In this document: positions 2,928-53,816 of the stretch, in pieces
How the letters are laid out: each line of letters opens with the position of its first letter
How positions within the stretch are numbered: the stretch's first letter is position 1
Origin: a virus
Strand: one strand, 5' to 3'
Virus record (IMG/VR): IMGVR_UViG_3300032086_000660
Coordinates: 1 to 61,833 of that record
DNA: 61,833 bases
Position numbers and translations under genes: made by a program
Notes under the pieces: model-generated
Told to the model about the DNA's origin: nothing
Seen by the model: the letters and a program-made list of their open reading frames with translations, nothing else
Databases searched by the model: none

Positions 2928-3356
2928 GTGGCAAAGAAGAAGAAATCTAAAAACTTAGGCAAATACGCCAGCGGATTGGAGAAATACTGCGGTGATTCTC
3001 TTGGCAAAGCTGGCTTTAAATTTATCTACGAACATCAGTTCGTTCTTATGGAGGGGTTCAAATACCCCTCCCCTTATTTTAAATCAACACCTAAGTCTAA
3101 GGAGTTGAAAGACGTATCGTCAAGGAAAATTCTTCCGATTACTTACAAGCCCGATTTTTACTTACCCGACCACAAGGTCATCATCGAAACAAAGGGATGG
3201 GTCAGAGCCAACGACTCTTTCCCACTGAGATGGAAAATCTTTATGAACTACTTAGTCGCCAATGATATGGACGACCATAGTCTGTTCATACCAAAGAACA
3301 AGAAACAAGTAGATGAAATATTAAACCAACTAAACCGATGGAAAGAGAAAAACTAA
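2928..3356 (+). CDS. Endonuclease I-like Holliday-junction resolvase
   Basis: A 142-aa protein of the PD-(D/E)XK fold. The core YKPD76FYLP...IIE87TK89G, with an upstream acid at E18, matches the T7 endonuclease I family, which cuts branched DNA during replication and packaging. The start is GTG at 2928. An ATG at 2924 is in another frame and stops after eight codons. The Lys-rich N-terminus (AKKKKSK) would help DNA binding. It sits 9 bases downstream of the primase-helicase. The nuclease fold is well supported; branch specificity is inferred. Confidence 0.7.
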   Translation: MAKKKKSKNLGKYASGLEKYCGDSLGKAGFKFIYEHQFVLMEGFKYPSPYFKSTPKSKELKDVSSRKILPITYKPDFYLPDHKVIIETKGWVRANDSFPLRWKIFMNYLVANDMDDHSLFIPKNKKQVDEILNQLNRWKEKN

Positions 3357-4457: not shown

Positions 4458-4927
4458 ATCGTATCAAAGTCTGTGTAGGTGATGGTCACCTTCTCCCCCC
4501 TTTCAATAGCCTCAGAAATTGGAGGATAAATTCTTTTATAAGCATTAACTGACGACCCCACCATACCATTACTATCGCCAAAATTCGCTTGTTGACTATC
4601 ACCAACAAGGAGACACCCAGCAGTGTGCTCATCAGTATTACCAGTGTGAATAAGGATATACTCAAAGTTAGGTACATCCCATACCCATAACATCCCTTTG
4701 TGCATCTCCCCATACTTCTTTAGATATCTGCTATGGAATCCTCCGACTTTTCTGAGTACGAGGTCGTATGTTCCAGCGGGAACACGAGTCTCGCCAGCGA
4801 CTTTCTCCTCCCTATGCTCATCTTCAAGCGTGTAGCATAAGAACTTTCTTTCTCCCCCAGTAACATCGAATAGTATCCCATTGGTGCTGTCTTTCTGACT
4901 GCTGAAGCGCAATACTTCTAACTGCAT
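4454..4927 (-). CDS. DUF5675-like cell-wall enzyme, endolysin candidate
   Basis: A 157-aa protein resembling the DUF5675 phage family. Notable segments are CYTLEDEHREEKVAGETRVPAGTY near the N-terminus and ILIHTGNTDEHTAGCLLVG in the middle. The His...Gly...Thr-x-Gly-Cys arrangement recalls L,D-transpeptidase catalytic motifs (HxxG...S/T-x-GC). A role in cleaving or remodelling peptidoglycan cross-links is plausible. It overlaps the u-spanin gene by four bases and abuts the holin candidate, completing a lysis cassette. The family match is fairly clear; the catalytic role is inference. Confidence 0.62.
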   Translation of the reverse strand: MQLEVLRFSSQKDSTNGILFDVTGGERKFLCYTLEDEHREEKVAGETRVPAGTYDLVLRKVGGFHSRYLKKYGEMHKGMLWVWDVPNFEYILIHTGNTDEHTAGCLLVGDSQQANFGDSNGMVGSSVNAYKRIYPPISEAIERGEKVTITYTDFDTI

Positions 4928-5178
4928 TACTCTCCCTTTTTAGCAAACTTCTCCAAGCCCGCAATACCGAAACTACCAAGAGTCACTATTACGAAAGAGT
5001 TGTAGGTAAACTCATTGATGACCAAATCATTACCCATAGCCCCACTGATTACATCAGCTAACATTACCAACACCATTACGGCAAAAGATAAGAAGCCGAT
5101 GATGGTCTTCTCATTGTAGTCGTTTTTGTCTTTGAAGATTTCTCCGAATTTCATAACTGCTTTTTTTAGTCTGTTCAT
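4927..5178 (-). CDS. Holin candidate
   Basis: An 83-aa protein with two predicted membrane helices, about residues 26-48 (IIGFLSFAVMVLVMLADVISG) and 62-76 (FVIVTLGSFGIAGLE), and a basic N-terminus (NRLKKAVMKF). Size, two-helix topology and position directly before the wall enzyme and u-spanin fit a class II holin. It begins just after the 3223-aa virion protein gene. No sequence motif proves pore formation. Confidence 0.6.
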   Translation of the reverse strand: MNRLKKAVMKFGEIFKDKNDYNEKTIIGFLSFAVMVLVMLADVISGAMGNDLVINEFTYNSFVIVTLGSFGIAGLEKFAKKGE

Positions 5179-5196
5179 AGTATTATATGTTGAATT

Positions 5197-8100
5197 TTAC
5201 TTTTGTTTCATTTTGTAGTAGTACCCATTGAACTGCTGATAGATAGCAATCTTCTTGTCGTGTAGCTTGTCCAGAAGCTCTTGTCTCTTCACTGGGTCTT
5301 CGATACGCTCTGCACGCTTCTCAGCCTCAGCAAGTTTCTTAACCTTGCTCTGTACTTGCTTATCAAGATTAAGCAGTCTGTTTAGTTGCTTCATCTCTGC
5401 CGTCATAGGCTCTCCACTCTTCAGTGCACCGATAGCCTTGTTCTTCTGCTTGAGAATCTCTCTTCGTGTCTCGTAGTATCGACCCGCAGCTTCTGACTCT
5501 CTTACTGTGCCCAAGAACTGTCTTGCCAGAGGAACATCGTTGAACTCAATGTCACCAGCTTTTCCTTTGTATAGCTTTTGACCAGTATCCATTGTTCTGT
5601 TGATGAACTTACCAGTACCACCCGACAAGAACGTAAACAAGTATTCAATAGTATCTGGGCTCAAATCAACCATACCCTTCTCGTAGTCGCTACCACCAGT
5701 CGCCTTGTTCAAGAACACAGCCATAGTCTTAGCCCACTCCGCAGCGTGTTTAGTTGGACGCTGTGAGTCTGGAGTGTCTGCTGAGTAGTAGAAGTCTTTC
5801 TTGTAGATTGGGCTACCGAAGAAGTTCTCATTAAGCTGTAGCTCCACGATTGGCTTCAATACTGTAGGCGTAGCACTCTTCAGAAGAGAGCCTCCCAAAT
5901 CACTACTCTTAGACAAAGAGATAGGAGAGAAAGAACCGACTATTCCATTCAGTAAGAATGAAGCAGACTCTGCTGGAGTAGAAACACCGAACGCTGTCTC
6001 AGAAAGAGCAGTACCCATGTTGAAGAACATACTCACACCATATGGCAGAGGAATCTTGAAGTAGTTTCCACGCTCGCTTCCGTACATAATGATTAGGAAA
6101 CGCTCACGCTCGTACTCTGGAATCTTGTTGTACATAGGGATGCCGTCTTCGTCTTCACCGCCCACAGCGATGTTCATCATAGTGAGTAGCGCACTGAACG
6201 CCATCATACCACCAGCAACCTTCTGAGCTTTCTTACTCTTGACAACCGAACGCAACAACCTTGTCGAACCTTGCACAGATGCATTGAAGAACAAGTATAG
6301 CGAGTTGGCTACAGCGCCAAGTTCACCCGAGCGGTTAAAGTTGATAGTGAGTTCTTTCACAAACTCTGCTGCTTGGTCTGCTGGTACGCCATTCTTTCTT
6401 GCAGCGATGTACGCACCGAAGCGGATACCGTTCTCAATAGATGTGTTTGCAACATCAACGAACTTAGCAACCTCAGAGAGCGAAGCAGTACCTTTCACAC
6501 CAACAGCTCTTGCCTTGTCTCTCAATGATGCTTCATCTGTAATCGGTTTTGTCTTCTCGATGTACTTGAGCATCTCTTTCTCAATCTCCTCAGCACTCTT
6601 CAATAAGAACCAGTCAGTCTTTGCACCCGATTTTAGGTACTCCTCGTAGAACGCTTTGGTCTCAGAGTCCATACCTTCTCTGTTTCCTTTCTCGTATTGG
6701 AACACGCCCTTGATAGCGTTAGGTACATTTCTGAGAGACTCTAAAACGAAGTCTTGACCAGAGATGTTTGACAACTCCATATCTTGTTCAGCCATCTGAT
6801 TGTACATAGCTGTTTGGATATCACGAGTGAAGTTAGCGAAGATAAACTCGGGGTTCCACGAAGTAAATACTCTTGTGAAGTGACGAGATGCTTTAGACAG
6901 TGCTTTCACCAGCATATTCGTCTTTGCTACACCACCATCGTTTAGCGTTCTTGTGATACGCTTGTCGTTGAACTTGATGTAGAATGTCTTACCCTTTACT
7001 TTCACTGGAACATAATCATTGTTACCAGCCATAGCAACACCAGCCATTCTTCTTCTCAGCTCGTACTCGTATTCTTCTCCAGTTGCTTCCTCAATGAAAA
7101 TAGATTCACCTCGTGAGGCAACACGAACACGCATATCTGGGTTTTCTTCTGTGAAGACCTCCCAAGCTTTAGCGTCTTTGTTCTGTTGAACCATCTCGAG
7201 TAGAACTTGAAGTACCTCGTTCTTTCTACCTCTTGAGATAGTACGCAAATGATTACTGATTACAGTTTCAAGCGGTGATTGAGCTTCAGAGAAACGACCA
7301 GAAACTTGTCTGTATTCCTTACCGAAGATTGCGATACCACCACCTCTCGACATATCTTGAGATGAACGAGTGTCGGTGAAGTCAAACAAATCAGATGTAG
7401 GAGTAACTGCTGTACCGACTAACGGAACGTAGTTCTCAAACATACCGAATGAATCATACTGTGCTTTGTTAATCAGTCCAAAGTCAAGCATCATCTTACG
7501 AGAAGCCTCTGTGATTTCGTAGACCATATCAGCCAGCTCATCCATTCTTGCTTTGTCCCCTTCGTACTTTTTGATGATTGCATCAGCAACCTCGTTAGTC
7601 ATACCAGAGCCAGCTTCATTTGCTGGGTCAATAGTATTCTTAACGAACTCGTTACGCTCACGAGCGTGTAGTGCGTATAGGTACTCAGAGATTTGCTCGT
7701 TTGTAACACCATACTCAATCATCTTATCCATCAAAGGCTTGAGCTTCTGCTCTTCAAACTGACGAGCATCTTCCGCAGCCTTACCGTGCATCAATGCTTC
7801 AGCTCTACGGAAGTTAGCATCGCTTCTTAGTACACGCCCTTGAGCCTTCTCGATAGATTTCTGTAGGTTCTGTAGTGGCTGGTACTTGTCCGCAAACTTG
7901 AATCTCAAGTGTTCGAATAGTCTGTATGCACCACCTTGTGTCTCAACGAAGTTTTCTACACCGTTTCGAATCAACTCTTCTTGGAACTCTTTCTTGAATA
8001 GGTCGTACTCTTGCGTTCCCTCTATAAGCTGTGCTTTACCCTTTTGAGACTTATCGTTCATTTTGTTCAGAAGAATTTTAATCTCTTCTGATACCTTGTC

Positions 8101-11100
8101 GATGTTTTTTTGGTTTTCAGCCTCCATATCAGCTCTTTCCATAGGGTCTAAAGACAGATTATCTAAAGCCTTGTTAGCTCTTTCGATAGCCTTTCTTTTA
8201 GCTTCTATTTTAGCCAGTCTTTTGAACGCATAGGCTGGAGGAGACATCCATATTTCATCTCTACTCACATCTGGGTAAAGCTCGTGAAACGCTGGGGTTC
8301 TGTTTTTTACTTTTTGAGTACCTCTTTGTCCTACGAAACGTGCTTCTGCTTCTCCAAGTTTTCCTTGATACACTTGATAGTCGCTCGCTCTTCCTCCAGT
8401 CATTTTTTCAGTGAATCTTTTCACGTTCAATGCAGCTCCTTGAGCAACGTTTCGAGCGACCTCTTTGAAATAGTTCAATGAATCAGCATTTAGGGTTTCA
8501 AGCATCCACTTAGTCCCCTTCATTGTCTTGTCCTTCTGCATAGCCTCCACAGCATACAGTAGAGATATAAAATCTTTGTTTCTTTCAGCAAAATCCTTCA
8601 TCTTGCTTCTTAGCTCTTCCAGTACCTCTGTGTTTACTTGGTCTCTGCTTTCGAGATTCGCTGTAATAACAGCTTTTCTTAAAGACGAGCTGTATGGAGC
8701 TCTACTTGTTAACCATGTAACTCCATCTGAATTTTTTACAGCGTCAACGATGTCTCCTCGAGACTCTATGAACTCTGACAAAGAAGACATATTAAAGTCG
8801 TACAAATCGTTTAGAGCCCAGTCAACATTTTCGAAATCTTCATTGGTTACAATGCGCCACAGCTCTTTAAGAGAGCCTATGAAGTCACCGTTTCTTTCTA
8901 TCTCAAGTATCTTTTCTGTCAAATTGTTTGCTGTTTTCAACTGAGCTTCCGCTGACCTTCTTGACCTTGTTCCAGAGTATCTTGCATCTCCAGATATTCT
9001 TCCAGTGTTGTACCCCTCGTCAAACTGCTCTATGTGTTGTACAGCGTGCTGTACTTCGTGATACACCGTGTTCATCAGCTCCGTGAAATCTCCTCCAAAA
9101 GTGCCTTTCTTTTTTCTTATCGGCTTTATCCCTAATTCAGTTTTCTCAAAGAAGTTATCCCAAGACACAGAAATCTCTTTTGAATAAGAATTGTGCTCAC
9201 CTTGCAGAAGAGGGTTAGAAAACTTTTCTATGATGAATGAGTATTCTTTTAGAGAAGGGTACATTCTGTATAAAGCCTTGTTCTCCAAAAAGTCTTCAAG
9301 CTTCATTTTGATTCCAACAGTCTTTGTTCTCCCTTTTACTTTTTTTGTAATCAACTCGAGCATAGGGTTCAGACTTGCATTCTCACCGTACATATCTGAC
9401 AGAATGTTAAGGGTACTGCCTTTTACGAAACCATAGTTGATTTCTGAACGCCAAAGATTGTCCATACCTCTGTACCATCCAGTTGCAAAGAAGATTGCTT
9501 CTCTACCCTTTCCAGCTTCCTCCATCTCTCTTGCGAGATTTAGATTCTCTTCAAGTCTACCACCAGCCATAGCGCCAATCTCTCCAATAATCTGTGCTTT
9601 ACCCTCTGGGGTAGAAGACAGCTTATGGTATTGGTTGAATGGGTCTGTGTCTGGAAGAGCTACCAAATCAAGAACAGCCTCTTGTGTAGACTCTTGGAAG
9701 CTACCAGCGAAGATGCTTTGAGATGTACTCTGTTTCAATCCAAAAGGCGGTACTGTGTACATACCCTTTTCTTGATTGTATCCAAATGTCAGTAAGTCTT
9801 TGAACGCTTTGTCAACTTGATATCCTCCGTCTAACTTGAAGGTCTGCTTTGACGGAAGCTTAGCGTTAAACTGCGGATGTGCAATACCGCTGTTTTGTTG
9901 GAAGCTCTCTCCCCAGTCAAGCGAAGGGTTCGTTACAAATCCGCTGTATGTGTATCCCCAGTCTCCATTGAGCGCTCCCTCTATGTATTCATCTGTTCTT
10001 GTCTCTGGTGAAGAATACTTTCTCCAGAAATCTACTTGACTGAATCCAGCCTCTGCCATTCTTTTTGATAGGCTTACAGCTACTCTTGCGTTAGGGTTGA
10101 TTCGCTCAACTCCTTTCACCTTGCCGTATCCTTTAGGTAGTAATGATTTTACGATTGCCTTTCTTAGCGGGAAACTCATCTTATCAACTACCTCAGCAAC
10201 AGCTTCTGATTTAGAGCCGTTAGCGATACCGTCAATAAACTTCTCTACAAGGTCAAGCTCCCCAGAGTTCTTGATAGGGGTAAGACTCATCAATCTTTCT
10301 TTGATTTCCGCAGCCGCTTGCTTTCTATCGTCCTTAAATGTCTCTGTAATAGCTTCAGCTAAGTAATCAGCAGCGTAGAAGTTTCCAAGCATTCCGTCTG
10401 GAGCTTGCTGCATAATCAGTACCGTAACATCTTTTCCGTTACCGATACTCTGAACCATATTTTTAATCTTGGTGACAGACTCTTGACTTACAGATGCAAA
10501 CCCAACACCATCTCTTAGATTTTCTTCTATGAATGAGTAGCCAATTCCACCCATAACGTCTTTACCGTCTACCTCACCAATACCAGTGTTGTCAGATGTA
10601 ATAACAAGGACACGACCCTCTGTTTGCTTTAATGCTTCTTGTAGGCTAAACGTAGGTGCGTCTCCAGTAATCACTTGAGCCTTTCCAGCCTCTGGGCTTA
10701 TAAAGCTTTCATCAGCTTGTGCTGCTACGCTTCCATCTTCAAAGTTCTGTTTTGTGATGTCAATCTGTGGGTATACCAGTATCTGGTCTTCACGAGCAAC
10801 ATCTTCTGTAGTAGACAACGGCTTCTGACGCAATTGCTCCACAGAATAGTAAGAACGAGTCTCAGCGTTTCTTGACTCAACCTCACCAGCGAGTCTTTGA
10901 TACAACTGATATCCGTTAGCAGAGTCGCTCTTTCTAACAACCTCGTCCCAGTAATCAAAAGCAGCGTTAGCCATATACTGGTGTCCCTTGTAATCCCACC
11001 ATCCATTCTCTTCGATGTTTTCTGTCATACCGTTTAGTATGTCTTCATCGAGGTTAGATAGGAACTCGATAAGCTCTTCAGCTTGTTCTTCGTCAAGTAT

Positions 11101-14100
11101 GTCATCGCTCGCCTCTACGATTTGCTCTGGAGACATATTGACCATATCGTTGTAGTTTCCTCCGAAACCAGACATCTCAGCCCCTTCAGCAAACCAGTCA
11201 AGGTATCTCGCCATATCTCTTGCCTTCATAAACGGCTTGAGAGGTTCTATAATCTGCTCATAAAGCTTCTGAGCCTCTTGAGTACCACCAAAGAAAGTTT
11301 GGAAGCTACCTCCAGTAGCCATCATCTCTCTGTGTTGCACCCAGTGCTGTAGTTCGTGAACAAGGTATGTTCTTACAGCTGAAGGTGTTTTTACTTGTAT
11401 CTCTATCGTGTTCTGAGAAGGACTGTACCAAGCTTCTGCTCTACCAGTTCCGTCTTCAGCTACATTGATGTCGATAACAATATCTTTTGACTCTGGGTAC
11501 ACCTCGAATAGCTCTGTTTCTATTACGTCAGACAGCTTAGCTCCTTTAATATTTGTTCCAGCTTGTAGCTCTGCTTTGATTGTAGGATACTCTATTTCGT
11601 ATCTCCACTTGCCGTCTGCACCTAAAGTCCAACCAAACGACTCTTGAAGTATTCTTTCAGTCTCTTCCTCAGACTTTACGTCTTTAATCATATCGTAGAA
11701 CTGCTTGGCTTGCTCTAACCTTCCAGAAATCTCTGGTCTTAGGTTTCCGCTTTCGCCAATAATCTGAGCCTTGTCGCCAGTCTCTTGACCTTTGTCCTTT
11801 CTCTTACGCAGTCTCTCGATGTCGTTAGGGTCGATTGGCTCGCCTTCTCTCATAGAAGCAGCGATGTCCTTCATAATCTGAACACCTTGAGTTCTTGAAG
11901 GAATAGGTACTTCAAACCCAAGAGCATCACCGATTACCTCAGCAATCTTTCTCAGAATACCTTTTTCAATCTGAATATCAAACTTGCCAGCAGCAAGCAT
12001 TGCAATGAACTCAGTAACACCTTCCTCAGAACGGTTTCCAGCTTCGTATCCAGCAATAAATCTTTGGATAGCAGAACCTACTGCCACACCCTCAATGCCA
12101 GACTGCTTAACCATCTTAGCAATCTCACCGAATAGAGCATCAAAAGACTTGTTTCCAAGCACCTCTCCGAATGCACCGTGTGTTGCTTCGTGGTATCCAG
12201 TAGTAGAAACCATAGCTGGAGCAAGGAAGTGAATCTCGTTTCCCTTCATAAAGTAACCACGAGTAAGTTTATCCAGTCCAGTTGCATCTTTAAATGCTTG
12301 TGCGCTCGTATGCACGAACACCTTTGCATCTGGTCTTACTGCTTTGATAGCCTTAACAGCGTTTTCAATAGACTGAAGACCTTTGATGGCAGCGTCTTTA
12401 GTTGTTTTAAAACCTTCAAATACTTGCTCACCAATTGTTTCAAAGTGATTGATGAGGTCAGCCAAAAAGCCTTCTTTGCCATCGTATTCAATAGTAGGCT
12501 GTAGCTTACCCTTCTCCATTTCAAATGGAACGTATAGCTCTTTACCACCAGCATCAGAAACCGCTTGTTCAACCTCAGCTTGATTCTCTGCATAGAAGCT
12601 TTCCTCTTCCATTGTAAGCGATTCTCCTTGCTTAATCTTTTGTGCAATAGAGATTGCCTCAGCAGACATATTTGAAGCGCTCTGAACAGATTGTAGACCC
12701 TTGTATTTTTCTTCGATAGCAAGCTTCTCTTGGAAGTCTGCTTTAATCTCTGCTCCAAGTGCTGACTTCGCAGCTCCTTCTGGCATAGAGTTCCACTGGT
12801 CTACCTTGCTTTGGAATGTATCAGCAATCTGCATCAACTTAGCGTGGTCTTCTGGAGACTCTTGTCTGATTCTTTCGAAGAACTCAGCGTTCTGCTTGTT
12901 ACGCATACCCTCTTTTGCGAGAGCTTTAGCAAGCTGAGCGCCTATAATTCCTTTTGTTTTCTTGTCTGCTGCGTTTTGATATTCCTCAGACAACTGCTTA
13001 ATCACAGCTCTTGAACGCAACTTGTCCATACCCAAACCAAGCTTACCAGCAATGTGTAGGTTCTGAACCTCGAATGGTGCACGAACCGCTGTTGTTGCAG
13101 TCTGCATACCGCCAGTCATAAGAACAGCAGAGTCAACAGCCTCCATTAACGGCTCTTTTAGTCTTTCCCAAGTAGCTCGTTTGCCTTGTGCTTCAAGCTC
13201 GTATTTAGTTTGAACGAGAGCTGTAGCAGCTTCGGCTGCCGCCTCCTCTGAAACAGATGTTCCATAAGAGTATGCAGTTGCCTTGATAAACTCACCGAAT
13301 GTCTTTTTAGCGGCTTCGCCAGAAATACCCTTTAGTGCTGGGGTAATCATTCTGTTAAAGATGTGCGCAGAAACGCTTTCACCAAGACCTTCTGCAAGAC
13401 CGTTTACCGTTGCAAGGGTAACACGCTGGGCTGGGCTCATTTCAGAGAACCAATCTTGACCCATTACAGACATATAGTAAGAAGAACCGCTTAAAGCCCC
13501 CATACCTACTGTCGATGTAGTCATTGCTGCGAGCGACTTGCTGCCAGAAATAGTTAAACCAGCTGCTCTTGAAGCGCCTTGAAAGTAACCAGCACCAACC
13601 ATATATGGTGCAGACTTAGCAAGAAGAGTTAGCGACTCGTTTACAAGTACAAGAGGGTTCTCATTTATGGTTTGGTTACGACCAGTTAGAGCTTCGCCTA
13701 AATCTACATCGCCCATAACTCGTTGACCTTCCTTACTTCTATAGTATTCGAGACCGTCACGAACCTTTTTTAGTGCGTGTGAAACATCAAATAAGTCGTC
13801 ATCTCCAGAGTATTGAAGTCTCTTGTCTATTCTGTCCCCAAGACCATCGAGCCCTTTCCCAAGCTCCTCTGTAGCCATAACAGTTGTTTCGAGAGCACCA
13901 GCTATAAGTGCTAATCCAGAAACAGCCATTTCGGCAAACGAAACAGCCGCAACATTTAGGCTACTATCTAATATGTTTTTGTTGTAGATTTTTCCATCAC
14001 CAGTGAGGTCAATAGACACATTACCCCAGTGCATAGTGTTTTCAACATCCTTCAAAAACTCCTCGTCATTGCGAAGGTTTTCTGGAAGGTTTTGCATCAA

Positions 14101-14868
14101 GTTGGTTTTGAAAATATCGTTGTATTCTCTTCCGTACTTCTCGTAGTATTTAGCACGGATTTTTTCTTTGCGTGCTTCTGGGTCATCAGTATCCAGTTGC
14201 TCTGGCATACCTCTACGCTTCTTCTCTTCTTGAACTGCCTCGTATGCAGCAGCTGCATTTTTAGAAGGTCTGTATCTCGATGGTTTAGATATCGATAAGA
14301 GAACACTCTTGTCTTTTACCTCATTCTTTAACTTTGTATGTTTCCAAGACTCAAAGTCATCAAGCACACCCAGTTCTTCAGCGATATCTTCGTCAGTCGT
14401 AGTCAGTGCCTCGTCATATGCCTTAACCTCTTTCTGATAGTCTTCATCATTATCAATGAGGTGGTCAAACAAGTCGTTAGGACTGTTTATCTCTAAGTCG
14501 GGAGCTTTGATGTTTTTATAGTCGTTAAACGAGCTATAGTTGATGAGGTCAATCTTCTCCTTTGGAAACTTCTCTGTAATAGAAGAATCCAAGCGTGAAG
14601 CTTCTGCCAGCAATTCTGATTCTGTAAGTTCTGGTGTTCTTTTTTTTTTACGTTCTGCGAGAATAACGTCAATGTCGTTATCAGAGAAGTTACGCATCTT
14701 CAAGATGTCTGCAATCTCTCTATCAGACTTGTTGCTCTTTACAGAAGCCTCGAGAATCTTGTCGTAGTCAGTTTTACTTATCTTACGAGATGTGTCGTAA
14801 GTAGGTTCTTCTTTCTTTACAATTTTTGCTTCCGTTTGATAAACGTACTTAGAATCGTTACCAGCCAT
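5197..14868 (-). CDS. Giant polyvalent virion protein with three HExxH zincin-like modules
   Basis: A single 3223-aa ORF covering 16% of the window. Residues about 290-620 are Ala/Gly-rich helices of possible membrane character. Three HExxH motifs occur: HEATH at 893-897, HELQH at 1171-1175 and HEVQH at 1937-1941. The last two are followed by W/A-VQH, and their modules begin with a GW..G-x-x-x-x-WR-x-EI motif, as in LPD-type large polyvalent protein domains of phage and conjugative elements. Four KAQ-(V/I/L)-I linkers start at K1033, K1396, K1757 and K2278. A segment near 2830-2930 (TINFNRSGELGA, then LYLFFNASVQGSTR) resembles the LPD38 domain. The C-terminus is coiled-coil. Such proteins are packaged and injected with DNA and are thought to counter host functions. 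Order after the muzzle and cargo-like genes supports a virion cargo role. No RNA polymerase signature was seen. Confidence 0.75.
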   Translation of the reverse strand: MAGNDSKYVYQTEAKIVKKEEPTYDTSRKISKTDYDKILEASVKSNKSDREIADILKMRNFSDNDIDVILAERKKKRTPELTESELLAEASRLDSSITEKFPKEKIDLINYSSFNDYKNIKAPDLEINSPNDLFDHLIDNDEDYQKEVKAYDEALTTTDEDIAEELGVLDDFESWKHTKLKNEVKDKSVLLSISKPSRYRPSKNAAAAYEAVQEEKKRRGMPEQLDTDDPEARKEKIRAKYYEKYGREYNDIFKTNLMQNLPENLRNDEEFLKDVENTMHWGNVSIDLTGDGKIYNKNILDSSLNVAAVSFAEMAVSGLALIAGALETTVMATEELGKGLDGLGDRIDKRLQYSGDDDLFDVSHALKKVRDGLEYYRSKEGQRVMGDVDLGEALTGRNQTINENPLVLVNESLTLLAKSAPYMVGAGYFQGASRAAGLTISGSKSLAAMTTSTVGMGALSGSSYYMSVMGQDWFSEMSPAQRVTLATVNGLAEGLGESVSAHIFNRMITPALKGISGEAAKKTFGEFIKATAYSYGTSVSEEAAAEAATALVQTKYELEAQGKRATWERLKEPLMEAVDSAVLMTGGMQTATTAVRAPFEVQNLHIAGKLGLGMDKLRSRAVIKQLSEEYQNAADKKTKGIIGAQLAKALAKEGMRNKQNAEFFERIRQESPEDHAKLMQIADTFQSKVDQWNSMPEGAAKSALGAEIKADFQEKLAIEEKYKGLQSVQSASNMSAEAISIAQKIKQGESLTMEEESFYAENQAEVEQAVSDAGGKELYVPFEMEKGKLQPTIEYDGKEGFLADLINHFETIGEQVFEGFKTTKDAAIKGLQSIENAVKAIKAVRPDAKVFVHTSAQAFKDATGLDKLTRGYFMKGNEIHFLAPAMVSTTGYHEATHGAFGEVLGNKSFDALFGEIAKMVKQSGIEGVAVGSAIQRFIAGYEAGNRSEEGVTEFIAMLAAGKFDIQIEKGILRKIAEVIGDALGFEVPIPSRTQGVQIMKDIAASMREGEPIDPNDIERLRKRKDKGQETGDKAQIIGESGNLRPEISGRLEQAKQFYDMIKDVKSEEETERILQESFGWTLGADGKWRYEIEYPTIKAELQAGTNIKGAKLSDVIETELFEVYPESKDIVIDINVAEDGTGRAEAWYSPSQNTIEIQVKTPSAVRTYLVHELQHWVQHREMMATGGSFQTFFGGTQEAQKLYEQIIEPLKPFMKARDMARYLDWFAEGAEMSGFGGNYNDMVNMSPEQIVEASDDILDEEQAEELIEFLSNLDEDILNGMTENIEENGWWDYKGHQYMANAAFDYWDEVVRKSDSANGYQLYQRLAGEVESRNAETRSYYSVEQLRQKPLSTTEDVAREDQILVYPQIDITKQNFEDGSVAAQADESFISPEAGKAQVITGDAPTFSLQEALKQTEGRVLVITSDNTGIGEVDGKDVMGGIGYSFIEENLRDGVGFASVSQESVTKIKNMVQSIGNGKDVTVLIMQQAPDGMLGNFYAADYLAEAITETFKDDRKQAAAEIKERLMSLTPIKNSGELDLVEKFIDGIANGSKSEAVAEVVDKMSFPLRKAIVKSLLPKGYGKVKGVERINPNARVAVSLSKRMAEAGFSQVDFWRKYSSPETRTDEYIEGALNGDWGYTYSGFVTNPSLDWGESFQQNSGIAHPQFNAKLPSKQTFKLDGGYQVDKAFKDLLTFGYNQEKGMYTVPPFGLKQSTSQSIFAGSFQESTQEAVLDLVALPDTDPFNQYHKLSSTPEGKAQIIGEIGAMAGGRLEENLNLAREMEEAGKGREAIFFATGWYRGMDNLWRSEINYGFVKGSTLNILSDMYGENASLNPMLELITKKVKGRTKTVGIKMKLEDFLENKALYRMYPSLKEYSFIIEKFSNPLLQGEHNSYSKEISVSWDNFFEKTELGIKPIRKKKGTFGGDFTELMNTVYHEVQHAVQHIEQFDEGYNTGRISGDARYSGTRSRRSAEAQLKTANNLTEKILEIERNGDFIGSLKELWRIVTNEDFENVDWALNDLYDFNMSSLSEFIESRGDIVDAVKNSDGVTWLTSRAPYSSSLRKAVITANLESRDQVNTEVLEELRSKMKDFAERNKDFISLLYAVEAMQKDKTMKGTKWMLETLNADSLNYFKEVARNVAQGAALNVKRFTEKMTGGRASDYQVYQGKLGEAEARFVGQRGTQKVKNRTPAFHELYPDVSRDEIWMSPPAYAFKRLAKIEAKRKAIERANKALDNLSLDPMERADMEAENQKNIDKVSEEIKILLNKMNDKSQKGKAQLIEGTQEYDLFKKEFQEELIRNGVENFVETQGGAYRLFEHLRFKFADKYQPLQNLQKSIEKAQGRVLRSDANFRRAEALMHGKAAEDARQFEEQKLKPLMDKMIEYGVTNEQISEYLYALHARERNEFVKNTIDPANEAGSGMTNEVADAIIKKYEGDKARMDELADMVYEITEASRKMMLDFGLINKAQYDSFGMFENYVPLVGTAVTPTSDLFDFTDTRSSQDMSRGGGIAIFGKEYRQVSGRFSEAQSPLETVISNHLRTISRGRKNEVLQVLLEMVQQNKDAKAWEVFTEENPDMRVRVASRGESIFIEEATGEEYEYELRRRMAGVAMAGNNDYVPVKVKGKTFYIKFNDKRITRTLNDGGVAKTNMLVKALSKASRHFTRVFTSWNPEFIFANFTRDIQTAMYNQMAEQDMELSNISGQDFVLESLRNVPNAIKGVFQYEKGNREGMDSETKAFYEEYLKSGAKTDWFLLKSAEEIEKEMLKYIEKTKPITDEASLRDKARAVGVKGTASLSEVAKFVDVANTSIENGIRFGAYIAARKNGVPADQAAEFVKELTINFNRSGELGAVANSLYLFFNASVQGSTRLLRSVVKSKKAQKVAGGMMAFSALLTMMNIAVGGEDEDGIPMYNKIPEYERERFLIIMYGSERGNYFKIPLPYGVSMFFNMGTALSETAFGVSTPAESASFLLNGIVGSFSPISLSKSSDLGGSLLKSATPTVLKPIVELQLNENFFGSPIYKKDFYYSADTPDSQRPTKHAAEWAKTMAVFLNKATGGSDYEKGMVDLSPDTIEYLFTFLSGGTGKFINRTMDTGQKLYKGKAGDIEFNDVPLARQFLGTVRESEAAGRYYETRREILKQKNKAIGALKSGEPMTAEMKQLNRLLNLDKQVQSKVKKLAEAEKRAERIEDPVKRQELLDKLHDKKIAIYQQFNGYYYKMKQK

Positions 14869-50746: not shown

Positions 50747-52013
50747 CAACATATTTATGACAAAATCAAGTGTCTACTTTGATACTGATTACGTGTTGAT
50801 GGTACAAAAAGCACCACATATATAGAGAGGTACGAAAATGCATAACATATATAGGGGTGAGTAATATAGAGGGTGGGGATTATAATACATATAGCACGCA
50901 CGCAGACACATACCGAAACGCAACCCAAGACCCTACCCCCCATCGATTGGCTGAGCGCCTACAGATATTTCAGCGTTTGCCCACAGCGCACAGACATTCT
51001 ATGTATTACAGCTATGTTGATAGTGAGATAGTACATAGACTATGTATGCAATCAATCCACTACAGATAGCTCAGTTGATTTGTGAGCGCAGTTCGTTACA
51101 GAGTGAGCACAATACCCCCCAATGAATTTATAACAGCATCACAGCGCCTCAATGGGGTACGCATTATATCTATATATAGCTACCCGTCTTATTTAGATTG
51201 GTTCTAAATTAACATCAAATGTGAAATATTTTACCACAGCGCTTGTGGAAACAAAATAATTGCGTATCTATGCAATGTCGAAAGCGACAAACGTTCTTTG
51301 AATCTGCACTTGCAACAATCACTACAGCGCCTCCGCTGACTGCCGTACTTGTGGGCATTAAACACTCGAATCAATGTCAGCAACAGCGCACCAATGTAGT
51401 GAGCGGAAACGAGTCAGAGCACGAGCATCTTGAAATACGGATGCAAACTGCGGATAGGCGGTACATATGGTAACTGCCTTGATGAGCTAACTTTAAGTGG
51501 TGTAAACTTGGAAGCGGAGCTACAGCGGAAACCAAATGTACCTATGGGGCATTCGGACTTAGGCTGTAGGGACTTCGGTCAGATGTGAAAGAGGTGTAAT
51601 CATTGATAGCAATAAGCGAGGAGTGAGAGTAGTACAAGAATCCATCAAAGCGACAATGGTCACAGCGACAGCTGTAGTCCACTTGGGGTTTTGGAGAGGG
51701 TAAGAGATAGCCATAGGATGTCTCTGAGAGTATTCAACTACTTTGGGTTTTGGAGAGCAGTATAAACACATCAACAGCGGAGCATCGAGAATGCTCAGAG
51801 CTACATCAAACATCTGATTAGGGCGCTCAATTGGGAGCGCTTAGAATCTGTATCACAATGGCTGAATTTGTTATGAGATTGGGAGCGCACAAACAGAGCA
51901 TTTGCTCGGGTGCTTAATACATCAATTGCATAGGAGGTCGTGGTACGGCAATAATCGTTTGGTATATCTCAGACATCTTGCCTAATTGGAGGCGCAATGC
52001 TGTTGTAGTGTTA
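50747..52013. other. Long gene-poor intergenic region, possible origin/control region
   Basis: About 1.27 kb with no convincing gene between the two divergent blocks. It contains ACAGCGC at 50983, 51141, 51236, 51324 and 51383, and ACAGCG-other at 51522, 51662 and 51774, all on the + strand. It has CATATATA-like A/T-rich stretches at 50815-50900. A 13-base direct repeat occurs at 51686 and 51745 (GGGTTTTGGAGAG), and a hairpin at about 51815-51840 (GCGCTC/GAGCGC). Short ORFs here have unphage-like composition. A replication origin or RNA-coding region is possible. Confidence 0.5.
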
Positions 52014-52069
52014 GCCCTAATTGGTTTGCTTTAAATGGAAGGTACGCAGTTCGATTCTGTGTTAGGGCA
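52014..52069 (+). ncRNA. tRNA-like element 1 (no anticodon arm)
   Basis: A 7-bp acceptor-type stem (GCCCTAA 52014-52020 with TTAGGGC 52062-52068) stacks on a canonical T-arm: stem CGCAG/CTGTG at 52045-52061, loop TTCGATT. An A follows as discriminator-like base. Directly after the 5' strand is TTGGTTT, resembling a D-loop GG. Only 24 bases connect it to the T-arm, too few for both D- and anticodon arms. The layout is close to the tRNA-like part of tmRNA. A terminator follows at 52074. It lies 51 bases before the amidoligase ATG. No CCA is encoded. Confidence 0.5.
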
Positions 52070-52073
52070 CAAA

Positions 52074-52098
52074 TGCTGAGTGACATCAGCACTTTTTT
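52074..52098 (+). terminator. Intrinsic terminator after tRNA-like element 1
   Basis: A perfect 6-bp stem (TGCTGA/TCAGCA), six-base loop and six T. It ends 23 bases before the amidoligase ATG. It either ends a small RNA or acts as an attenuator for the gene. Confidence 0.65.
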
Positions 52099-52120
52099 AT
52101 TAACCAAAATTTTATCAATT

Positions 52121-53686
52121 ATGTCACAAGTTAGAAACATCATCACCAACAGAATGATTAACAGCGAGAATGCTCGTATGTCTAATCTAATGGGAGGTTA
52201 CATTCACGTTAATGTAGCTGAGCAAATTGTCGAATCAGTACGAGTAGATGCTGATTCTGTTTACGATGCAATCCGTACAGAGTATGATTGGGTTTCTCGT
52301 GATTACAGAGATTCTCAGTGCATCAAATTGCTATTGGTAGTCCTTGCAAACGGAGGTCGTGTTCGCACTCTCAATGCTTGGGCATCGCCTAACATCAACT
52401 TAGATGGTCTAAACTTCTTCCACATTGGAACAACAAAAGTTTACACTAACCTACATTGCAATGGTACAGATTGTCCGCCGGATTTTCTCAAGCAAGTATC
52501 TATACTCGAGTACGGAAATCCTAACGGCAATCCTACCGGCATTCTTACTTACAAGCAGTTTACTGCGATGAGCAACAGACCAAGCGCTGTGAATTTACCA
52601 TCAGCAGTTCTGAGAGAGGTGCGCCAAGAGATGGTATGTCCTTATGTAATCGAAAGCGGATGGCTCAGAGATAAGTTATTCTCTCGCAATATGACCATCA
52701 ATGGTACAGACAGAAGAATAAACTTTATGTATGGTTCTGATTCTCATACAGCATACGAGTCTTGGAGGTCAGCGCAGTACAACAACAACAATGGTCGCAT
52801 CTTCGGGTATCACGGAAGCGGTAATTTCCGCTCGCAGTTCGATGCTCAGATGGAAGATGGTAAATGGTATTTCGGTATCGAGGCTGAGAAGCAAGATTCT
52901 GATGCCAAAGCATATGCTGATTACCTAAGCGGTAAATGTGGTCAATGGGGCGCTGAGAGAGATGGTTCACTTGGTCGTGGTGGTGCTGAGTTTATCTCGC
53001 CAATCCTACCATTACACAATGGGTCATTTGTTCGTAAGAATTTCCAACAGCATCGTTGGATGCTCGATGCGAAATTGGATGACAATGGCAATGCGAATCG
53101 TACATCTTGCGGAGGTCATATGACCATCAGCAAAAAGGGTATGAGCGGTCGTGAATTGCTCACGCACTTGCATCACTTTGTGCCTTTGTTCTACAGCCTA
53201 TACATCGGGCGCTTGAACACTAACTACGGAGGCGCTGTTGCAAAGGGCGATGTTGCTCATACACGCAGAGCATTCAACTTGAAATCGTTCGGTGTTGAAA
53301 TTCGTATCTTCAGCGGTGTTCCATCAATGGAAGGCGCTTGGTGGAGAGTTCAACTTCTGCAAGTTATCGCTGATATGATTGACAGCGGAGAGGTTCAATC
53401 GTACAAGGATGTTGCTAACGCACTCGTTACAGACAAGCATCCACTACGCAAGGTTATGCGTAAGCAGTACGATAGCAAGCGCATTCGTGACAAGTTCGCA
53501 CTTGTGCTCGCATTCGGTCATATGTACGAGAACAATGGTTCTTCAAGCATTGACATCAGCAATACATCAGATGATGTAAAGCATAAGAGTGACAGAGTAA
53601 TCAGAGCATTCAATCAGTTCAGAGATGTGCGTTCGTGTACTCAGCGCTTGTGGGGTGTTGACAGCATCACTACAACAGAGGCATAA
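52121..53686 (+). CDS. Amidoligase (glutamine-synthetase-fold COOH-NH2 ligase)
   Basis: A 521-aa protein starting MSQVRNIITNR after an A-rich leader. An upstream in-frame start at 51986 would run through the tRNA-like element and terminator. Hallmarks of the amidoligase_2 superfamily are visible: FGIE254AE, then E279RDGSLG with GAEFISP, R-x-x-C330GGH333 and FGVE393IR395IF. They form the metal and ATP site of a glutamine-synthetase-like fold. Such enzymes join carboxyl and amino groups using ATP. Members linked to class II glutamine amidotransferases and gamma-glutamylcyclotransferases are known in phages, and both occur here downstream. The substrate is unknown; peptidoglycan peptides, proteins or small metabolites are candidates. 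The N-terminal 240 residues are extra to the core. Confidence 0.78.
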   Translation: MSQVRNIITNRMINSENARMSNLMGGYIHVNVAEQIVESVRVDADSVYDAIRTEYDWVSRDYRDSQCIKLLLVVLANGGRVRTLNAWASPNINLDGLNFFHIGTTKVYTNLHCNGTDCPPDFLKQVSILEYGNPNGNPTGILTYKQFTAMSNRPSAVNLPSAVLREVRQEMVCPYVIESGWLRDKLFSRNMTINGTDRRINFMYGSDSHTAYESWRSAQYNNNNGRIFGYHGSGNFRSQFDAQMEDGKWYFGIEAEKQDSDAKAYADYLSGKCGQWGAERDGSLGRGGAEFISPILPLHNGSFVRKNFQQHRWMLDAKLDDNGNANRTSCGGHMTISKKGMSGRELLTHLHHFVPLFYSLYIGRLNTNYGGAVAKGDVAHTRRAFNLKSFGVEIRIFSGVPSMEGAWWRVQLLQVIADMIDSGEVQSYKDVANALVTDKHPLRKVMRKQYDSKRIRDKFALVLAFGHMYENNGSSSIDISNTSDDVKHKSDRVIRAFNQFRDVRSCTQRLWGVDSITTTEA

Positions 53687-53693
53687 GCCTACA

Positions 53694-53734
53694 GAGGGGT
53701 AATGGTTAATGCGGGTTCGATTCCCGCACCTTTC
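53694..53734 (+). ncRNA. tRNA-like element 2 (minihelix)
   Basis: A 7-bp acceptor-type stem (GAGGGGT 53694-53700 with ACCTTTC 53728-53734, two G-U pairs) encloses AATGGTTAAT, a D-loop-like stretch. It also encloses a perfect T-arm (GCGGG/CCCGC) with loop TTCGATT. There is no room for an anticodon arm. The third pair is G-U, the position of the alanine identity pair in tRNA-Ala and tmRNA, but the next base is C, not the A preferred by AlaRS. It begins 8 bases after the amidoligase stop. A long-range stem (CAATCATT 53740 with AATGATTG 53774) and a terminator follow. Confidence 0.5.
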
Positions 53735-53782
53735 CTATTCAATCATTCACTTGTTTCGTGGATATTTTTGGTTAATGATTGT

Positions 53783-53816
53783 GGGCGCTCGGGGTTTCTC
53801 GGGCGCTCATTTTTTT
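53783..53816 (+). terminator. Terminator of the amidoligase/tRNA-like unit
   Basis: Two GGGCGCTC copies, 10 bases apart, pair with each other over 8 bp including two wobbles, followed by A and seven T. Confidence 0.75.

Follow-up and report, generated by a model that had tools for sequence, protein, structure and literature searches.

A stretch of 61,833 nucleotides (nt) of viral DNA, IMG/VR record IMGVR_UViG_3300032086_000660 (the window), contains two short transfer RNA (tRNA)-like elements, TLS1 and TLS2, on either side of an open reading frame (ORF) for an amidoligase-like protein. The initial annotation of this locus proposed that the elements yield small RNAs which are charged with an amino acid for use by the ligase, or which act as decoys for a tRNA enzyme or as regulatory mimics; its interpretation was partly supported by the analysis described here. 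The features of the locus are listed below, where L001 and L006 denote loci of relatives and bp stands for base pairs.

52014-52068, plus strand: TLS1, the longer variant, supported by a full-acceptor scan and compensatory changes in L001
52014-52019 and 52063-52068, plus strand: acceptor stem of TLS1, GCCCTA pairing with TAGGGC
52020-52027, plus strand: GG linker of TLS1, ATTGGTTT
52028-52043, plus strand: small arm of TLS1, GCTTT AAATGG AAGGT
52044-52049 and 52057-52062, plus strand: T-stem of TLS1, ACGCAG and CTGTGT
52050-52056, plus strand: T-loop of TLS1, TTCGATT
52074-52097, plus strand: hairpin with U-run 3' of TLS1; the hairpin position is kept in L001, the U-run is lost there
52121-53686, plus strand: amidoligase-like ORF of 521 amino acids, between TLS1 and TLS2
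53694-53734, plus strand: TLS2, the minimal type, supported by covariance models R1 (E 8.5e-7) and R2 (E 1.9e-7) and compensatory changes in L006
53694-53699 and 53729-53734, plus strand: acceptor stem of TLS2, GAGGGG and CCTTTC
53700-53709, plus strand: linker of TLS2, TAATGGTTAA, 10 nt
53710-53715 and 53723-53728, plus strand: T-stem of TLS2, TGCGGG and CCCGCA
53716-53722, plus strand: T-loop of TLS2, TTCGATT
53781-53816, plus strand: terminator-like hairpin 3' of TLS2, conserved in L001 and L006

The window was scanned for a full acceptor stem, a GG-bearing linker, a perfect 5-bp T-stem and a TTCRANT loop. This strict scan returned exactly TLS1 and TLS2 on the plus strand, where the initial annotation had placed them, and zero elements on the other strand. 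Shuffled windows gave a mean of 0.025 elements, and two were reached in 1 of 200 shuffles. The best register of both elements is 6+6 bp rather than the 7-bp acceptor-type stem first described, but the alternative register likewise yields a tRNA-like 12-bp acceptor/T-arm stack, and that part of the description holds. In comparison with a canonical tRNA the stack and a TTCRANN T-loop are present. A D-arm and a 7-nt anticodon loop are absent both from TLS2, which has the 10-nt linker alone, and from TLS1, whose arm has 5 bp and a loop of 6 nt. The claim that the inserts cannot hold an arm is wrong for TLS1: its 24-nt insert does form a small one, GCUUU-AAAUGG-AAGGU (ACUUC-AAACGG-GAGGU in L001, with U-A changed to C-G), although the 6-nt loop is unusable as an anticodon loop. 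A terminator-like hairpin follows each element as described, conserved for TLS2 but without the U-run in L001 for TLS1. Run on the window, ARAGORN reported no tRNA and no transfer-messenger RNA (tmRNA) with a tag reading frame at TLS1 or TLS2, and Rfam gave no match at the gathering threshold; in lax mode just the T-arm of TLS2 was flagged as tmRNA-like, below threshold. The 3' portion of TLS1 gave weak matches to tRNA-Thr, which were limited to the acceptor and T-arm.

A protein search of viral contigs yielded one close relative, L001, in which the amidoligase is 57% identical and both elements occur at the same places. In its TLS1 the T-stem has C-G in place of A-U and A-U in place of C-G, and the extra hairpin has C-G in place of U-A. 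In the acceptor of the relative's TLS2, G-C replaces A-U and U-A replaces G-U; in the T-stem, U-A replaces C-G. Compensatory changes, which the initial annotation had put forward as a check, are thus strongly evident, with two-sided changes in L001 and L006 and throughout the family described below. The G-U at pair 3 of TLS2 does not represent a conserved alanine identity: the relative has A-U at this pair, just 2 of 96 scored family members have G-U there, and a G3-U70 identity was rejected on that count.

A profile of three amidoligases gave 79 loci, many of them on contigs of about 60 kilobases (kb); judged by its terminase, the window is close to phages of Flavobacterium and Cellulophaga. 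A strict scan of the amidoligase loci found 22 elements on the plus strand and 0 on the other, the shuffles having a mean of 1.0. The first covariance model was built from nine elements of equal length, as a MAFFT alignment of mixed lengths had put the acceptors out of register. With this model, which is of the TLS2 type, 27 elements including TLS2 itself were found at E < 1e-4 in these loci, all on the gene strand. For the longer-insert variants resembling TLS1, a scan that also catches full tRNAs gave 29 matches, all on the plus strand, and ten shuffles gave 0. Some relatives carry full tRNA-Arg(TCT) or tRNA-Tyr genes where others have minimal elements (L024 2080-2154, L027 2344-2418, L041-L043 ca. 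2263-2338 and L009-L011 ca. 2475-2731), which hints at the origin of the elements. A palindromic hairpin, GTGTCTTTGAAGACAC, also recurs in the early-gene gaps, often just 5' of a tRNA-like element (L044, L026, L034, L037, L040, L051, L052, L063, and L003 at ca. 3147-3162 and ca. 4913-4928); the variant in MW202828 is GTGTCGTTAACGACAC, and in L031 the palindrome sits within the element.

The family extends well beyond amidoligase loci. Viral contigs were searched with a pattern that contains no acceptor stem (ATGGT, 7-9 bases, GGTTCGANTCC), and at least 120 loci were found. Among the matches listed, 71 of the 122 non-tRNA sites had a full 6-bp acceptor at the expected place, a rate that fell to 1.6% when the 5' strand was displaced. 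A control pattern with GG replaced by CC gave at least 123 sites, 100 of which were ordinary tRNAs, and a full acceptor occurred in 0 of the 23 others. The control shows that the GG linker forms a unit with the acceptor/T-arm. Over 74 aligned elements the covariation score was 0.999 against 0.180 in shuffles, with two-sided changes at 11 of 12 pairs; these counts favor structure since the elements were selected by it, and the acceptor-blind pattern with its GG to CC control is the less biased evidence. The GG and the T-loop are near-invariant across the aligned elements, whereas the acceptor stems differ at every pair and no acceptor or discriminator identity is conserved. The set used further comprises 140 distinct examples, de-duplicated by exact sequence alone; a few loci represent one and the same contig (L111, L034). 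The helix measures 11-13 bp in 135 of the 140, 12 bp being commonest. After the helix the 3' tail often reads A then C, as at a tRNA 3' end, and the third base is rarely C.

Elements were found in Streptococcus agalactiae prophages, where the copy in phage LF2 adjoins an aberrant tRNA. Other records with elements are assigned to Lachnospiraceae, Bacteroidota, Paenibacillus, Brachyspira and Alphaproteobacteria. In the S. agalactiae prophages an aberrant tRNA-like cluster, labeled tRNA-Tyr, tRNA-His or tRNA-Ser by annotators, lies 5' of the terminase genes (L205 1583-1778; L206 1570-2100). Rfam 15 gave no family match for the other loci at E < 0.01 with a plausible family, tmRNA matches being below threshold. 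No equivalent phage element was found in the literature, although subscription papers and preprints were little covered and this absence is weak evidence. The elements constitute a widespread RNA family of bacterial viruses that is apparently undescribed.

Full tRNAs in the same region of some relatives, and the mixture of elements and aberrant tRNAs in Streptococcus prophages, could suggest that the elements are remnants of tRNA genes or attachment sites in functionless decay. We give this hardly any credence: it is contradicted by the covariation and the GG to CC control, two-sided compensatory changes occur throughout, the GG and T-loop are near-invariant, and the elements keep to a single strand and to a fixed position between stop and start codons, as described below.

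Aminoacylation is possible for minihelices made up of acceptor and T-arm, the window amidoligase is flanked by two elements, and other amidoligase loci have elements as well, all of which would suit released small RNAs that are charged and used by the ligase or that serve as decoys for a tRNA enzyme. Yet an amidoligase is recognisable in 3 of 120 general-pattern loci, among the matches listed and within the stored stretch, and most of these loci lack one there, the elements sitting between genes of many kinds. The acceptor stems, variable at every pair, offer no common synthetase identity, the CCA end is not conserved and neither is G3-U70. Because the tail is often A-C with C rarely next, charging would also need trimming and CCA addition. 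Charging of such RNAs for use by the ligase is therefore unlikely, and the carrier or decoy function as a whole very improbable.

The position of the elements relative to genes points elsewhere. Most are intergenic, many touch the upstream stop codon, and the next start typically follows after about 38 nt. The stop of an ORF occurs within 120 nt upstream for 109 of the 140 elements, and an ORF starting with ATG within 200 nt downstream for 121. A stop within 25 nt upstream combined with a start within 60 nt downstream was found for 59 of 140, compared with 3.3% of sites picked at random from that strand. In L153 elements and genes largely alternate, with purine-rich sequences resembling ribosome binding sites in the leaders. 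In L214 ten elements alternate with genes over 7 kb; their T-arms are very similar, their acceptor stems are different, and several begin on the last base of the stop codon. As in tRNA punctuation, tRNA structures separate successive genes and lie on the coding strand. A different arrangement was observed in L163, where five closely similar elements, spaced by about 150 nt, lie on one strand within 0.7 kb (1086-1778) that holds no convincing ORFs; this is a tandem array rather than gene punctuation.

The distance of about 38 nt from the start codon could also fit a tRNA-mimic operator, in which a synthetase, elongation factor, tRNA modification enzyme or phage protein would bind the cassette and control how the following gene is translated; the thrS operator is an example. 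T-arms are indeed a type of substrate for tRNA modification enzymes. However, no acceptor or discriminator identity is conserved, many copies precede unrelated genes, and the link to the upstream stop codon is equally strong; repeated intergenic placement is less well explained by an operator or a decoy. We regard such an operator as rather unlikely.

The explanation that we favor, with a probability of about 0.6, is that the elements act as tRNA punctuation at which host RNase P cuts polycistronic phage messages. Each cassette corresponds to the upper half of a tRNA, the 12-bp acceptor/T-arm stack and the T-loop, with a short linker that carries the two G's which dock into the T-loop in a tRNA. 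The cassettes lie between phage genes of the same direction, which are presumably co-transcribed, and a cassette would fold after the ribosome leaves the upstream stop codon. RNase P would then measure 12 bp from the T-loop and cut on the 5' side, while the 3' side may be cut or trimmed by RNase Z or another tRNA 3'-processing activity. The pieces of a polycistronic message divided in this way would have defined ends, and the downstream gene would retain a short leader, with a probable effect on expression. Bacterial RNase P is known to cleave hairpins of acceptor, T-stem and T-loop by means of a 12-bp ruler and elbow stacking (PMC11143913), and natural mRNAs and phage RNAs are among its substrates (PMC12710915). 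The family has the acceptor/T-stem of about 12 bp and the T-loop of a minimal RNase P substrate. We favor this explanation because the elements keep what RNase P reads and have lost what decoding or charging needs, namely the anticodon arm, the D-arm, a fixed acceptor and a conserved CCA. Further points in its favor are the covariation, the dependence on GG, the common strand, the stop and start placement, the alternating arrays of L153 and L214, the frequent A-C tail, and the full tRNAs that some relatives have in this region.

Several observations weigh against RNase P punctuation. Some elements start inside a stop codon, and a cut at the canonical site would take part of that codon. No clear flanking gene was found for 9 of the 140 elements, the L163 array included. 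Not every element has a C after the discriminator, the L214 tails being without it, and there is no conserved CCA, while RCCA is required by some RNase P model substrates (PMC12710915). In 47 whole records searched, strong model matches were restricted to the amidoligase region. Genome-wide punctuation in amidoligase phages was rejected, since the elements occur there in a single early region.

Because overlap with stop codons hinders cleavage at the canonical site, protection of 3' ends remains a rival. The cassette would stay on the upstream mRNA after 3' trimming, perhaps followed by CCA addition, and shield it from 3'-to-5' exonucleases in the manner of the tRNA-like 3' ends of plant viruses. 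Elements directly after or overlapping a stop codon fit a 3' end better than a cut within the codon, and the tail often begins with a tRNA-end-like A-C. On the other hand CCA is not conserved, and many elements also lie at a short set distance before the next start, for which protection has no need. We consider this function unlikely, if worth keeping in mind beside RNase P punctuation.

The label of the 521-residue protein rests on mixed indications. The window protein had no Pfam or PHROG match and profile support is weak, a homologue matching the PHROG family 'amidoligase enzyme' at E 9e-4. Because the protein and its relatives have in common invariant glycine/glutamate, aspartate, CGGH and arginine motifs, and because a low-confidence model (predicted local distance difference test, pLDDT, 57) best matches Dop, PafA and glutamine synthetases, an amidoligase is a plausible assignment. 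The amidoligase profile had no match in bacterial genomes, and the window region showed no DNA similarity in named phages. Downstream of the amidoligase, L044 (7168-8217) and L072 (5696-6799) carry a fusion gene of a class-II glutamine amidotransferase and a gamma-glutamyl cyclotransferase. Elsewhere in the window, 5197-14868 encodes a 3223-residue protein, the C-terminal third of which has matches among large phage proteins of unknown function (PHROG 14770, 616).

Upstream of the amidoligase-like gene one further feature was noted.

51239-52068, plus strand: candidate for a structured non-coding RNA, ca. 0.8 kb long, ending in TLS1; 5' end approximate

This region is 79% identical to L001 and as conserved there as coding sequence. 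Its consensus fold has a z-score of −4.9, compared with −2.4 and −3.2 for coding controls, and 19 double-compensatory pairs were counted between the two sequences against 8.0 in shuffles. No Rfam family matched, GOLLD and ROOL included. Exact 17-18-mers of this upstream RNA occurred just in the L001/L005 contig, and L004 was rejected as a carrier because its 17-18-mer match was due to chance. Judged by conservation and predicted folding, the region is a good candidate for a large structured RNA, of which TLS1 would, by the logic of punctuation, set the 3' end.

The broader proposition, that minimal tRNA-like cassettes not described before serve as modular intergenic punctuation in phages of several bacterial phyla and make host RNase P an operon-scale mRNA processor, is in our view evenly poised. 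If it is true, mRNA punctuation by tRNA structures of the mitochondrial type would also occur in bacterial viruses, where the natural signal would be very small; phages would separate and tune genes within one transcript by means of a host enzyme; and natural minimal RNase P substrates would become available and many unannotated intergenic gaps be explained. Whatever its function, a covarying family this broad that is missing from Rfam 15 is new information, and it is easily annotated with a 42-position covariance model. What is new is a covarying RNA family that fails the tests for the known families tried, with a mode of action most likely that of tRNA punctuation.

Among the closest known systems is the punctuation of mitochondrial transcripts, in which RNase P and RNase Z cut a polycistronic transcript at intergenic tRNAs. 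In both cases tRNA structures lie between genes, against or within stop codons, on the same strand and repeated along an operon. The mitochondrial structures are full functional tRNAs, whereas the cassettes are 40-55 nt long, have no usable anticodon arm and occur in DNA phages, where cleavage is predicted. The synthetic RNase P model substrates AT1 and pMini consist of the same acceptor, T-stem and T-loop domain with a 12-bp ruler (PMC11143913); unlike these, the cassettes are natural and intergenic, have a GG linker between acceptor and T-stem and no conserved CCA. RNase P targets in the his and other operon mRNAs and in the C4 antisense RNA of phages P1 and P7, as cited in PMC12710915, are isolated sites on non-tRNA transcripts, whereas the cassettes form one recurring covarying family. 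The tRNA-like domain of tmRNA also combines a T-arm and acceptor without an anticodon arm, but ARAGORN finds no tag-coding part in the cassettes, Rfam tmRNA matches are below threshold and G3-U70 is not conserved. The tRNA-like structures of plant viruses are tRNA mimics that end viral messages, and that of turnip yellow mosaic virus is an RNase P substrate (PMC12710915); there the acceptor is pseudoknotted, ends in CCA and lies at the genome 3' end, while the cassettes have a simple acceptor and are internal and present in many copies. Finally, GOLLD and ROOL are large phage non-coding RNAs near tRNAs, with tRNAs sometimes in the GOLLD linker (PMC12286853), to which the 0.8-kb block ending in TLS1, itself without an Rfam covariance match, is comparable.
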